Shown here: positions 3,201 to 21,409 of the stretch, piece by piece
How the letters are laid out: every line of letters begins with the position of its first letter
Numbering within the stretch: the first letter of the stretch is position 1
Source of the DNA: a virus
DNA: 21,409 bases
Direction: 5' to 3' (one strand)
IMG/VR virus record: IMGVR_UViG_3300036944_000665
Coordinates: 1-21,409 of that record
Program-made: the position numbers and the translations under genes
The notes under the pieces: model-generated
The model's database searches: none
Told to the model about the DNA's origin: nothing
The model's input: only the letters and a program-made list of their open reading frames with translations

Positions 3201-3384
3201 TTTGAACTTCCTTGGCAACGCTGGCGCTGACATGTCGCCTGAAGTTCGTGAGCAATCAGAAAAAGTAGTGGTCACTGCAGTTGTTGCCGCAGGTGTCGCA
3301 GTTCAAAGTGCCGCGGCGGCTGCAACCACTGCCGCTGCATCAGCTTCCGCTCCATCAGGCGGTTCAAGAAGAGTAGGAAAGTAA
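295..3384 (+). CDS. Large coiled-coil structural protein with PA14-like domain (candidate tail fibre/minor tail protein)
   Basis: A 1029-aa protein. Residues about 1-45 form a signal-peptide-like N-terminus: basic start, hydrophobic stretch at about 22-38, then AIAS. Residues about 85-345 are a long Ala/Thr/Ser/Gln-rich coiled coil. At about 380-525 lies a PA14-like beta domain, recognisable from FTGNLLVPEDGYYQF, PADDGTKL and the WIRAG...Y.F.L.YYENGG pattern. PA14 domains bind carbohydrates in many surface proteins. The domain is bracketed by Thr/Tyr/Val-rich linkers. A second beta-rich segment with two cysteines (about 560-665) precedes another Ala-rich coiled coil (660-880), an acidic Pro/Glu stretch (880-930) and an Ala-rich tail ending in GGSRRVGK. 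Placement just upstream of the lysis genes fits a host-recognition fibre or adhesin. Whether it is in the virion or exported to the cell surface is unresolved because of the signal-like N-terminus. Confidence 0.8.
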   Translation: MLRPEKGEGERPAKFHNSIKKAPLIFTTALLVGFPLCLGQAAIASTSSFGLDRLQYQSQTARGMLTQSLPKSYQGSRLLSSTSLPSESEISSLESTLSGYKAKLTSLKAKVESDYPDLAGLVASLEQEISLLAQDIATAKSARAALATNISAVTKATEKYNSILETKSTTKAALEAATSALTTAKSNHETAKSATTTAAANLTKATTDLATAKTTNTTAKADLAKASTEYTTALQARDAAQAILTQVTAQRNSTSATVTQATANLAAATSTLTQARLDLTAARDARTAAQSQYSAALANYSSASATTQQAQAAYDSIYQQLQTANQALAQAQSNYDTNLIPDPNWTAPTYQQERTRQVERTRTVQVTTLVPTTTVVATGGVLAEVFNRNGYNNAPPMPYAGETPMYSTIVSNIDFNWGSGQVLQSGRSEDVIVRFTGNLLVPEDGYYQFYTPADDGTKLNIAGMELIDDWYDKGGGGSISDPVWIRAGIFYPFTLHYYENGGGASVSFYSYNPQTGFSIVPATWIGSGSQQITTYEEVTTSQIETYYETETYYTTEPVLTQGTINVDIGEGGQATFTAPAGAVFISANLRYESYNDPTCGADVSQTLQPGVTSTLSQITLSADNSIWGDPCGGQVKHLVGTLTYLGQPTANLINDPALLPAVEAAQQTVNTLSEQLATAAANVASTVPATDETQASLTQASTTLQNANTVVAAAELVEAQAQTSKDAAESSLTLGESALTTADADVVTATAALDEASTKLTSATTARDEAQSDSDAAVLAESAAAIALTTAESEVTTAESAEATALTAVSNAESLVTEKESLDSTVDGQLDAALEEKNSAESDAQSTQAQYASAIAAASASKPDFSTLETELAKPKPDPEETGSEEIPEELSAENLLEVDLEKVDPTELTPAQAEQLVEAALETFETAEQGSPEYEQALDALYLAAEQDDIELSPELAAVPGLAAAVEVLNFLGNAGADMSPEVREQSEKVVVTAVVAAGVAVQSAAAAATTAAASASAPSGGSRRVGK

Positions 3385-3385
3385 C

Positions 3386-3802
3386 ATGTACGAATACAGA
3401 GTCAAGAGTGTCTTAGCCGTAGTCGACGGAGATACCATCGATGTAGACATCGACTTAGGCTTTGACATCTCAATAACCAAGCGAGTTCGTCTTGCTGGTA
3501 TTGACACACCAGAGTCTCGCACCGCAGATAAGGCAGAAAAGGCGCTAGGTCTAGAAGTCAAAGAGCTTCTCAAGAAGAAACTAAAAGCCGCGACTAACAT
3601 CGTTATTAGAACAGAGAAGCCAGACTCATCAGAGAAGTACGGTCGTGTTCTCGGCTGGCTCTACCTTGACGGAGACGGCGAGTCAGTCAACCACGCACTT
3701 ATCGCAGGCGGATACGCATGGGGTTACACTGGTGACGCAAAGGTAAAAGACTTTGAAGAACTAAAAGCTAAACGAGCACTAGCTCAGAAAGAAGAAAACT
3801 AA
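3386..3802 (+). CDS. Staphylococcal nuclease (thermonuclease) homologue
   Basis: A 138-aa SNase-like OB-fold nuclease, expected to be a Ca2+-dependent phosphodiesterase on DNA or RNA. The family signature is complete: VVDGDT (metal ligand D14), RLAGIDTPE (R35, D40, E43) and YGRVLGWLYLDG (R87), which match the catalytic Arg/Asp/Glu/Arg set of the family. No signal peptide or membrane segment is seen, so it should act inside the infected cell or be packaged. It starts one base after the stop of the large structural gene, and its stop overlaps the next start (TAATG), so it is translated within the late/lysis operon. Roles in host DNA breakdown or clearing DNA at lysis are guesses. Confidence 0.9.
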   Translation: MYEYRVKSVLAVVDGDTIDVDIDLGFDISITKRVRLAGIDTPESRTADKAEKALGLEVKELLKKKLKAATNIVIRTEKPDSSEKYGRVLGWLYLDGDGESVNHALIAGGYAWGYTGDAKVKDFEELKAKRALAQKEEN

Positions 3803-5207: not shown

Positions 5208-5525
5208 CTACATGTAGAACTGAACGCAGCGTTCCACATTCGATACCGTCTGAATACCTCTGAGCGCGTGAACCTTTGTGCCATTCTTGTAGACAAGAAT
5301 CATTGGTACCTGGTTAGCTTCTGCGTCAATGACAAGCTGCTCTTCAGTGGCGCAGTCTACCTTGAACGCGGTCACGCTTCCAGGAAAACTTTCCACCATC
5401 TTCTGTAGAGAGATTTCAACCACTGTCGAGATGTCTCCATCAAGTACAAATCCAACTAGCACTAGACCAGATGCGTCTAGTACGTCAGCTTGATACGTAG
5501 ATAATGTCGTGTTTGCGATTGTCAT
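5208..5525 (-). CDS. Thioredoxin-fold protein lacking the CxxC active site
   Basis: A 105-aa protein that keeps the thioredoxin pattern: a beta strand at LVLVGFVLDGD, then VTAFKVDC, a helix, and VPMILVYKNGTKVHALRG with the cis-proline loop (Pro before MILVYKNG). The WCGPC motif expected after the LVLVGF strand is absent; that position reads LDGDISTV. Cysteines remain at about 59 and 101 only. It is unlikely to be an ordinary disulfide reductase and may be a binding or structural relative. It is the last gene of the leftward run, before the bidirectional terminator. No Shine-Dalgarno is seen, but a TAGAAT hexamer lies 7 nt before the ATG. Fold assignment is fairly firm; function unknown. Confidence 0.75.
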   Translation of the reverse strand: MTIANTTLSTYQADVLDASGLVLVGFVLDGDISTVVEISLQKMVESFPGSVTAFKVDCATEEQLVIDAEANQVPMILVYKNGTKVHALRGIQTVSNVERCVQFYM

Positions 5526-15919: not shown

Positions 15920-15925
15920 ATTCTA
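15920..15925 (-). promoter_or_regulatory. Candidate -10 hexamer (leaderless) for the 15912-15231 unit
   Basis: TAGAAT on the minus strand lies 7 nt before the GTG at 15912 and 21 bp after the terminator hairpin of the preceding RNA region. No clear -35. Same hexamer and spacing as at 5533-5538. Confidence 0.4.
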
Positions 15926-15940
15926 GTCTAAACACTCGGT

Positions 15941-16163
15941 AAAAGTAAAACACCCCGTATTTCTACGAGGTGTTTTGTGTGAATAGGTGGAATGCTTTTT
16001 ACCACCAGGGCCTAACTACTTCGGTTCCATAAGATCCGCTTTTGAGCCCACCTGACGTTCGTCCGCTAAGACAATCCGCTAAGATTCGCCAGTGCCTTAC
16101 CCGCCCCATGTAGCTTTGCGAGTTATTCAGCCATACTCCGCGCCGACCGTCGCCTTCGCGTTA
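15941..16163 (-). ncRNA. Candidate structured non-coding RNA, about 220 nt, class unknown
   Basis: A gene-free stretch with an extended -10 promoter before it (16170-16178) and a hairpin terminator at its end (15947-15976). Minus-strand folding by eye gives: a 6-bp stem with one bulged G (16118-16123 with 16135-16141, 11-nt loop); a closed multi-branch element (16052-16092) where the stem CTGGCG/CGTCAG encloses two side-by-side hairpins, AATC-TTAGCG-GATT and GTC-TTAGCG-GAC, with identical 6-nt loops; and GGTGG/CCACC (loop 10 nt) near 15985-16004. It does not show the conserved motifs of RNase P RNA, SRP RNA or tmRNA. Existence as a transcript is inferred. Confidence 0.5.
15947..15976. terminator. 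Hairpin terminator after the candidate ncRNA
   Basis: AAAACACCCCGTA and TACGAGGTGTTTT form a 13-bp stem with a single C-A mismatch (plus strand) and a 4-nt loop. On the minus strand the arm ends in TTTT followed by ACTTTT, on the plus strand in TTTTGTGTG, so termination of the minus-strand RNA is the better reading. There is no plus-strand gene upstream. Confidence 0.7.
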
Positions 16164-16169
16164 ATCTCA

Positions 16170-16178
16170 ACTATACCA
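16170..16178 (-). promoter_or_regulatory. Extended -10 promoter before the candidate ncRNA
   Basis: TGG-TATAGT on the minus strand, a near-consensus -10 with TG extension. The predicted start of transcription is near 16163, with no start codon downstream before the terminator at 15976. Confidence 0.45.
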
Positions 16179-16397: not shown

Positions 16398-17141
16398 TTA
16401 CACTGCCTGGAGAAGGTCGTTTATGATGACTAGTGTGTACTCAGGTCCTGTGGTAGAGATACACTCAACACCGGTCTTTAGCACTGGGTAGTCGTTACCA
16501 TTCTCGTCTAGTCTGTCGCCGATAAAGAGAATCTCATCTTTAGTCAGCCTGGTCAGGTCGAGAAGGCTTTCAATCCCATATGCCTTGTCTGCACCCTTCA
16601 TCGTCACGTCTATACTCGTAGACCCGCCTGAGCGAACCTCTAAGTCAGGCAGCAGCTGAGCTACATAGTTGCGCATAAGATTCTTTTTCTTGCCAGTCGG
16701 GTCCCACGCCTTTTTCAACTCTGCTGGAGCCTTCTGCCCAAGAGCCGAGAACGTAATTTGTGGTCCACGGTTCTCGATGATGTCTCCGTGCGGGTTTTCT
16801 TCCCAGAGACCTAATGACTTCGCCGCTCCTTCAAGAGTCTGGACTACTCGCTTGCTCTCATCTTCTGTAAGCTTCTTGGAGTACAGCGTAGTCCACTCAT
16901 TGTTCATCAGGCGGATGTAGGTGCTTCCACATGTCGGCATTAGGTGAAGTCTCTTGTAGTTCTCAGGCCTAATCTTAGAAACGACTTGCTCCATGACCTG
17001 GCTCTCATTGCCGCCAGTGATTATGCAGACTGAGTACTTTGTAAGCAGTAAGTTCAGGCCGTCAGCCATTTCATCACTAATCTGGCGCTTGCTCTCAGCA
17101 AGGGTGTCATCTAAGTCAAATGCAACTAATCGTAAAGTCAT
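16398..17141 (-). CDS. HAD-superfamily (type IIB) phosphatase/phosphomutase, phosphomannomutase-like
   Basis: A 247-aa protein, the length of eukaryotic-type phosphomannomutases. Motif I is FDLDDTL (nucleophile D9, acid/base D11), followed by IITGGN and, near the end, FIGDRLDENGNDYPV (208-222), the metal-binding motif IV. The middle QITFSALGQKAP, GGSTSIDVTMKGADKAYGIESL order parallels phosphomannomutase (N-x-S-P-x-G...; S-x-D-x-x-x-x-G-x-DK). It may convert mannose-6-P to mannose-1-P or act as a sugar phosphatase, and the cupin at 8242-8589 may supply its substrate. TAAAGT lies 6 nt before the ATG. The gene begins 19 bp after the 3' end of the tmRNA on the same strand. Confidence 0.85.
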   Translation of the reverse strand: MTLRLVAFDLDDTLAESKRQISDEMADGLNLLLTKYSVCIITGGNESQVMEQVVSKIRPENYKRLHLMPTCGSTYIRLMNNEWTTLYSKKLTEDESKRVVQTLEGAAKSLGLWEENPHGDIIENRGPQITFSALGQKAPAELKKAWDPTGKKKNLMRNYVAQLLPDLEVRSGGSTSIDVTMKGADKAYGIESLLDLTRLTKDEILFIGDRLDENGNDYPVLKTGVECISTTGPEYTLVIINDLLQAV

Positions 17142-17160
17142 AAGTCTACTTTACTTTGAG

Positions 17161-17500
17161 TGGACCAGCGGGGAATCGAACCCCGGTCCTAACATCTTGC
17201 TTATATCCTTCTACACGCTTAGGCAGATTGTTTGCGACCAGACGTATGACCTGCCAGACCGTCGGACGTTGCCACGATTTATAGACTCCGTGGGAAAAGT
17301 CTTGTTTGTCCTATTTATTTAAAGCCTGGCTGCCCATCTAGGACTGATGCTTTGCCAGGGGTTCTAACTACTTATCAGGCAGCTAGAGCGAATGCGGAAC
17401 GTGAGTTTGCATTTGTTGCTTTGCCACACTTCAAGAGTGCGTGGCCGTCTCTGCGTGCTTCTCTATAAGACATAGACGCTAGTCGAAACCTGTCTAGCCC
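17161..17500 (-). ncRNA. ssrA: Transfer-messenger RNA (tmRNA)
   Basis: About 340 nt on the minus strand. The 5' end GGGCTAG-ACAG-GTTTCGAC has the conserved tmRNA start with the 7+4+8 spacing of actinobacterial tmRNAs. The 3' end has a T arm, CGGGG-TTCGATT-CCCCG, and acceptor strand CTGGTCC that pairs with GGGCTAG (two G-U), then discriminator A; CCA is not encoded. The tag frame at about 17419-17375 reads ATNANSRSAFALAA and then TGA TAA; two preceding codons (GGC AAA) could belong to it. The ALAA end is the proteolysis signal. It rescues stalled ribosomes with host SmpB. A promoter lies just upstream; the leader would be removed by RNase P. Phage tmRNAs are known in some large mycobacteriophages. 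Confidence 0.96.
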
Positions 17501-18521: not shown

Positions 18522-18848
18522 CTAACGGTTGCGACTTGGTGGAACCCGTAGCGAGACTGGAATACCCCTACGTATCTTGGATCGGTCCTTCTCAGTTGAC
18601 CCTCCCCAAATGCCTATAAGCTCAGGTCTCTCGAGCGCGTAGAGGAAGCAGGACTGACGATACTCACATCCGGAACAAATCTGCTTAGCCTCACGCTCAT
18701 GGCTGTATACTAAACGACGTGGCAGCATTGACCCTTCCATCGGGTCATCTGGGAAGAATGCGTCAGGAAAAGTTTCAGCACAGACAGGAGATTCATCTTT
18801 ATCAAGGAAGTCTGGATAATCAAAACCGTTGATGTGCTCTTTTGTCAT
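18522..18848 (-). CDS. WhiB-family iron-sulfur transcription regulator
   Basis: A 108-aa protein from MTKEHINGFD. Four cysteines, C23, C58, C61 and C67, form the C-Xn-C-X2-C-X5-C set that binds a [4Fe-4S] cluster, and GIWGGSTEKDRSKIRR (79 onwards) is the WhiB G-(I/V)-W-G-G turn with the basic DNA-binding tail. AFFPDD near residue 30 is also typical. WhiB-like proteins bind sigma factor region 4 and alter promoter choice; phage versions such as gp49 of TM4 interfere with host septation and superinfection. The ATG at 18848 has AGAGGA upstream and lies downstream of an extended -10 promoter, whereas the earlier in-frame start at 18887 would precede it. Confidence 0.95.
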   Translation of the reverse strand: MTKEHINGFDYPDFLDKDESPVCAETFPDAFFPDDPMEGSMLPRRLVYSHEREAKQICSGCEYRQSCFLYALERPELIGIWGGSTEKDRSKIRRGIPVSLRVPPSRNR

Positions 18849-18877
18849 TGTGCCTATTCCTCTAATGCGTTTGTTTG

Positions 18878-18886
18878 ATACTACCA
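18878..18886 (-). promoter_or_regulatory. Extended -10 promoter for whiB
   Basis: TGG-TAGTAT on the minus strand between the FmdB-type gene and whiB. Predicted start near 18871, giving a leader of about 20 nt that contains AGAGGA. No good -35 is seen. Confidence 0.5.
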
Positions 18887-18890
18887 CATT

Positions 18891-19078: not shown

Positions 19079-19079
<1 letters not shown>
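18891..19079 (-). CDS. FmdB-type zinc-ribbon protein
   Basis: A 62-aa protein beginning MPTYEYKCEEHGHKYSEIRS. It follows the FmdB/CxxC_CxxC_SSSS family: MPTYEY-x-C, a middle CPEEKCGSPLIRIFS, and a tail PPITFNGAGFATSK equal to the usual x-F-x-G-x-G-F. The zinc ligands are altered: C8 pairs with H11 where the family has a second Cys, and the second pair is C30 and C35 with an enlarged spacing. Metal binding is still plausible. The start overlaps the stop of nrdF (TAATG), so it is coupled to the ribonucleotide reductase genes. Function of the family is poorly known. Confidence 0.85.

Positions 19080-21409
<2,330 letters not shown>

Follow-up and report, generated by a model that had tools for sequence, protein, structure and literature searches.

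Locus and anatomy of the RNA

The window, i.e., the whole 21,409-nt stretch of DNA that was analysed (IMG/VR virus record IMGVR_UViG_3300036944_000665, positions 1 to 21,409), carries an RNA element on its minus strand, in a 313-nt gap between two short ORFs. From upstream to downstream on that strand, the features of the locus are:

17158..17500, minus strand: tmRNA (RF00023, 117 bits; ARAGORN tag ANSRSAFALAA), about 1 kb upstream of the RNA and on the same strand
16363-16226: 45-aa ORF, upstream border of the gap
16170..16178, minus strand: extended -10 sequence TGG-TATAGT, about 10 nt before the first hairpin (direct reading)
15976..16160, minus strand: the whole conserved RNA, assigned to the twin-loop sub-type of the manA family (RF01745 match, model R1, covariation)
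16139..16160, minus strand: 5' hairpin P0 with a GACG tetraloop (loop 16151-16148; sequence, and covarying stem pairs in helices 1 and 2)
16134..16138, minus strand: 5' strand of the closing stem P1, GAGTA, which pairs with 15986-15982
16095..16131, minus strand: P2 hairpin, with the conserved blocks CTGAATAA and TAAGG as its internal loop
16052..16092, minus strand: stem P3 (CTGGCG/CGTCAG) around hairpins P4 and P5 (direct reading and covariation)
16077..16082, minus strand: loop A, TTAGCG
16064..16069, minus strand: loop C, TTAGCG
15982..16049, minus strand: P6/P7 arm, P8 hairpin (GGTGG-TAAAAAGCATT-CCACC) and 3' strand of P1
15947..15976, minus strand: terminator-like hairpin AAAACACCTCGTA-GAAA-TACGGGGTGTTTT with a T-rich tail (direct reading and folded structure)
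15920..15949, minus strand: promoter-like site TTTACT-18-TAGAAT, after the terminator and before the 88-aa gene
15912-15646: 88-aa ORF, downstream border of the gap and next gene after the RNA

The two strands of P3 (CTGGCG, 16092-16087; CGTCAG, 16057-16052) enclose P4 (AATC-TTAGCG-GATT, 16086-16073) and P5 (GTC-TTAGCG-GAC, 16072-16061); an earlier note on this DNA had read this twin-loop anatomy exactly. The plus-strand reading of the feature was rejected, as its fold was weaker and its family match not significant. The P6/P7 arm holds an extra AGCGGATC (16040-16033, minus strand), which duplicates a portion of the twin-loop hairpin sequence and is also seen in many relatives.

The note had also given the RNA a promoter and a terminator of its own. 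Both are readable in the sequence and have counterparts in relatives: -10-like hexamers lie at a similar distance in L049, L061, L237 and L242, and hairpin terminators of unrelated sequence occupy the same place in L006, L049, L061, L236, L237, L238, L242 and L244. However, a consensus promoter and terminator scan of the window did not rise above chance and listed neither the extended -10 nor the hairpin. The hairpin (15976-15947) has 13 bp and could serve as a terminator on both strands. Among RNAs with the same two loops (hereafter referred to as twin-type RNAs), terminator-like hairpins followed 10 of 39, against 1.3 expected, and in relatives of the window the terminator is often followed by a new promoter-like sequence or a tRNA.

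Further upstream, these relatives have nrdF, a whiB-like gene and other genes in common, and their immediate flanking genes differ. In the window, an actinobacterial host is indicated by a WhiB-like regulator (18522-18887, minus strand) and by NrdF (19079-20035, minus strand; 86% identity to its relatives in L037 and L071). A HAD-type hydrolase (16398-17141, minus strand) also matches the phosphomannomutase family of Pfam (PF03332, 40 bits). Its position is upstream rather than downstream of the RNA, so the link to mannose may be a coincidence.

Relationship to the manA family

A permissive Rfam search matched the window at 16160-15976 (minus strand) to the manA family, RF01745, over the full length of the model (positions 1-192; 53.2 bits, E 7e-13). 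This is 2 bits below the curated gathering score of 55.2 bits, and a search at the default threshold misses the match. The nearest relatives lie above the cut-off, namely L006, a close relative of the window from IMG/VR (55.5 bits), L049 (66.8 bits) and Rhodococcus phage Francesca (72.9 bits), and other records of the same type reach 68.4 bits. Altogether, 41 of the 45 records tested matched RF01745, 28 of them above the curated cut-off. In blast, the Francesca homologue, the sole annotated phage found, was distant (70% over 158 nt, E 3e-6). A covariance model built from twin-type RNAs only (R1) scored the window RNA at 179 bits, the window being part of its alignment, and reciprocally recognised canonical cyanophage manA RNAs (E about 1e-12). 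In the window RNA, the conserved manA elements CUGAAUAA, UAAGG and GGUA...UCC hairpin all occur in their proper order. We conclude that the window RNA is almost certainly a member of the manA family. The earlier note, which had matched it to no standard RNA class, had a divergent manA RNA before it, and its word "new" holds only at the level of a sub-type, whose loop pair and genomic setting are unlike those of textbook manA.

Single-sequence folding of the window RNA was unremarkable (z -1.47; 15 of 200 shuffles folded equally well), and it is the comparative evidence that sets this RNA apart from chance. Covariation was assessed on 25 twin-type sequences, with shuffles (500) and slid alignments as controls. 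Double-sided compensatory changes were found in 38 of 45 pairs, with 83.7% of cells paired, and the covariation score (0.513) was reached by none of the 500 shuffles (0.214 +/- 0.011) and compares with at most 0.185 in the slid controls. Compensatory changes were seen in all stems. All pairs of P4 (4/4) and P5 (3/3) were doubly compensated, with 97-98% of cells paired; P3 had double changes in 5 of 6 pairs (78-92% of cells paired); and in P2, helices 4 and 5 covary with 98-100% of cells paired around two invariant or near-invariant blocks. The consensus secondary structure of manA is thus supported by covariation in the twin-type RNAs. Covariation within 16052-16092, which the earlier note had named as evidence that would favour its proposal, is present (7/7 pairs of P4 and P5), and together with the family match it bears out the proposal of a phage structured RNA.

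Searches with other models and in other genomes delimited this assignment. The tRNA and tmRNA models did not match the feature; the only calls by ARAGORN and Rfam are a tRNA-Thr and the tmRNA, both at other positions of the window. The ROOL and GOLLD models of Rfam matched neither the window nor the loci scanned. No manA match was found in T4, KVP40, Jay2Jay, Mildred21 or Bacteroides phage DAC15, and the pattern hit in the last of these (L010) was discarded as chance. Of 30 pattern hits in bacterial genomes, the covariance model recognised none as a manA RNA, i.e., no chromosomal copies at that sensitivity. Blast of other twin-type RNAs against phages and plasmids gave nothing useful.

Twin UUAGCG loops as a sub-type

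The twin UUAGCG hairpins are conserved in about 50 distinct viral RNAs, including those of Rhodococcus phage Francesca and Streptomyces phage Wakanda. The scans aimed at twin loops returned 15 and 50 contigs, which together with Francesca and the window amount to 50 distinct sequences; for most sequences the loops were fixed by the scan pattern, and loop constancy was judged from unconstrained scans only. When CTGAATAA, TAAGG and the 3' hairpin were the only elements fixed in a scan, it gave ten plausible members, comprising eight twin TTAGCG contigs, one canonical and one divergent RNA. With only GGAGTATGGCTGAATAA fixed, 21 true members were recovered: 13 had exact twin UUAGCG loops, three had a UAGC core in both loops, one had UAGC in the first loop only and four had other loops. 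The Wakanda RNA, which was found by the Rfam model regardless of its loops, likewise has two UUAGCG loops. The twin loops described in the earlier note are therefore real and conserved.

Canonical manA RNAs collected without loop constraints (n = 97) have GUGGU[G/A] as loop A (97/97) and ACCA in loop C (94/97), and TTAGCG in none (0/97). The loop pair typical of marine manA, GUGGUG and NNACCA, is complementary, and we infer that GUGGUG and ACCA can pair with each other; the manA pseudoknot is marked with a question mark in the original figure (PMC2864571). This pair is absent from the window RNA, in which both loops are UUAGCG. Since relatives of the same type pass the family model, we treat the mismatch as a difference of sub-type and not as one that defines the family. 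The twin-loop manA RNAs form a distinct sub-type. Kissing between two UUAGCG loops was considered and rejected, as they are not Watson-Crick complementary and could at most form a 2-bp GC core with A.G on its flanks.

Several records depart from the two main loop types. Close relatives of the window RNA in L237, L238, L242 and L244 carry other loop pairs, with a GUAACG-like first loop and a GGUGNAACC-like second hairpin. L244 joins a UAGC first loop to the other second hairpin, suggesting that the loops may be swapped as modules. L027 has two weak manA-like matches in tandem (3276-3453 and 3474-3672), 20 nt apart and with different loops. L246 encodes a Type II hammerhead ribozyme above the gathering score (5296-5358, minus strand), in a contig that also has a divergent manA-like RNA.

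tRNA/tmRNA arrays and the proposed role

We further examined the genomic setting of the twin-type RNAs. An ARAGORN tRNA or tmRNA lies within 500 nt of 33 of the 44 distinct twin-type RNAs, always on the same strand, against 11.2 expected and a maximum of 19 for random positions in the same stretches (500 trials); the safer count is 32 of 44, as the window enters only through a spurious tmRNA call. That second ARAGORN call (16554-17251) was rejected, because Rfam does not match it and its span runs into both the true tmRNA and a coding gene. In our own tally, 17 of 27 representatives at <95% identity have a tRNA or tmRNA neighbour; about one third of the twin-type contigs have no tRNA nearby. 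Among canonical marine copies, such a neighbour was found in 11 of 103 within the available sequence. Where RNA and tRNA genes adjoin, the gaps are mostly 0-8 nt. The Francesca RNA lies between tRNA-Met (3 nt) and tRNA-Lys (1 nt), and that of Wakanda between tRNA-Gln (4 nt) and tRNA-Trp (0 nt). The canonical RNA of cyanophage S-SSM7 abuts tRNA-Gly (0 nt), ending one base before it, and in the marine L005 group the RNA starts 11 nt after a permuted tmRNA of alphaproteobacterial type. The proximity to tmRNA that the earlier note had pointed out thus rests on a real tmRNA and holds as a tRNA/tmRNA association across relatives, but the window copy itself has no adjacent tRNA and its own tmRNA is about 1 kb off.

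The association is not wholly unreported. A study of the Bifidobacterium megaplasmid pMP7017 (PMC10832533) described tmRNA, tRNAs and manA on it, noted the two ncRNAs among these from the transcriptome and mentioned in passing that manA may adjoin tRNAs. As in the twin-type loci, the pMP7017 manA (R1, E 1e-13) stands in one same-strand array with tmRNA and tRNAs, followed by a terminator-like hairpin, although it is carried by a plasmid and its loops are not UUAGCG twins (loop C is UUGCG).

Such a place in tRNA/tmRNA arrays suggests a free-standing RNA and not a switch for the next gene. The current assignment is the opposite one: manA was proposed as a probable riboswitch, often found before metabolic genes (Weinberg 2010; PMC2864571), and Rfam lists it as type Cis-reg. 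A cis-regulatory element in the 5' leader of the next gene would fit the terminator-like hairpin directly after the RNA in the window clade, as well as L244, a counter-example with an attenuator-like layout, where a ribosome-binding-like site and ATG come immediately after the terminator. It would also fit the canonical loci with a downstream ORF, where that ORF is on the same strand in 106 of 114. Against it stand the promoter-like site between terminator and next gene in the window and several relatives, the many copies with a tRNA within a few nucleotides downstream, and a next gene that runs the other way in cyanophage P-TIM68 and in 6 of the 31 twin-type loci. Moreover, the constant class of downstream gene expected of a riboswitch was not found in the twin-type RNAs, whose first downstream ORFs fall into 21 families among 25 and are no more similar than the upstream ORFs. 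At canonical loci the downstream ORFs form 36 families among 106, and family sharing is slightly higher downstream than upstream (0.065 vs 0.042), which counts against a free-standing RNA. Among annotated cyanophages, the gene before the RNA may be the major head gene, regA, ferredoxin, pstS or another, and there is no constant downstream gene. Taken together, we regard a riboswitch as an unlikely account of the twin-type RNAs.

The flush position between tRNAs, always on the same strand, would also suit a targetless structured insulator, i.e., a spacer or processing aid that assists the maturation of the tRNAs. Yet L006, L028, L030 and L041, which have no nearby tRNA, keep the structure, the twin loops and the conserved blocks, and the window copy lies about 1 kb from the nearest array member; such a spacer role thus appears improbable. 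Least credible of all, to the point that we give it hardly any weight, is the reading in which the locus is not expressed as RNA and its inverted repeats are due to chance or act at the DNA level. The folding energy of the single sequence (z -1.47) would be compatible with it, but strong compensatory covariation, conserved unpaired blocks and the match to an RNA family all argue otherwise.

On the evidence of sequence and genomic position, the twin-loop lineage is therefore probably free-standing and not cis-regulatory, which would be a probable correction of the role assigned to manA. Transcription of the window RNA would start at a promoter and end at a terminator of its own, yielding a product of about 220 nt, and array members may be released when the neighbouring tRNAs are processed, since an RNA flush with tRNA ends would be freed by tRNA processing. 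As with other phage RNAs of tRNA islands, the product would most likely be a stable structured RNA that acts in trans in the infected cell. More speculatively, its exposed loops (GACG and the twin UUAGCG) could dock with an RNA, a protein or a second copy; the earlier note's idea that the twin loops would suit a dimeric protein, or one target RNA bound twice, is likewise conjectural. Though no scan required it, the GACG tetraloop motif occurs in most upstream stretches (twin-type, 35 of 38; canonical, 120 of 154), and in 27 and 94 of these, respectively, it is the loop of the strongest hairpin. As GACG tetraloops take part in the dimerisation of retroviral RNAs (PMC516450) and ROOL and GOLLD form RNA cages (PMC12286853), one may speculate by analogy that manA RNAs homo-oligomerise through their loops. 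A match between UAAGG and the 3' end of 16S rRNA is also speculative. A Rhodococcus WC1 transcriptome paper (PMC10986025) held no manA RNA data.

A wider proposal, which we put forward only tentatively and would not bet on, is that all manA RNAs are trans-acting phage or plasmid RNAs of tRNA/tmRNA arrays rather than riboswitches. They might be freed by tRNA processing and act in the takeover of translation. The discrete loop types would then tell apart their partners, or point to a dimer or oligomer made of RNA alone in which the GACG and UUAGCG loops form the contacts.

Comparison with known systems places the twin-type RNAs close to manA as published (PMC2864571), with which they share the 5' GACG hairpin, the closing stem, the CUGAAUAA/UAAGG internal loop, a multi-hairpin domain, the P6/P7 arm and the 3' hairpin GGUA...UCC. 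They differ in their loops (UUAGCG/UUAGCG vs GUGGUG/NNACCA), in having one inner hairpin fewer, and in their setting in tRNA/tmRNA arrays of actinophage-type and other phages rather than in mannose- or photosynthesis-gene leaders. ROOL and GOLLD (PMC12286853), two other structured RNAs of phages without an assigned function, are also often found near tRNA islands, but are much larger and unrelated in sequence to manA. RNA C and RNA D of T4 (species 1 and 2 RNAs) are likewise small and stable and immediately adjoin tRNA genes in the array of that phage, although they are shorter (139 and 119 nt), and T4 has no manA match anywhere. If the free-standing reading is true, manA would join these RNAs as a phage RNA of tRNA islands whose role is open to genetic testing. 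It has been an unsolved riboswitch candidate since 2010, and for a free-standing array RNA, searches for a ligand would target the wrong mechanism. The twin-loop type is present in two cultivated phages, Francesca on Rhodococcus and Wakanda on Streptomyces, and is thus testable now.

In the deposited genomes of these two actinophages, the manA-type RNAs (Francesca, L001, 7980-8162; Wakanda, L262, 1735-1969) are unannotated. In four cyanophages (L249, L251, L253 and L254), manA comes right behind a head gene, gp23 or gp24, a position that suggests it may ride on a highly expressed late transcript.
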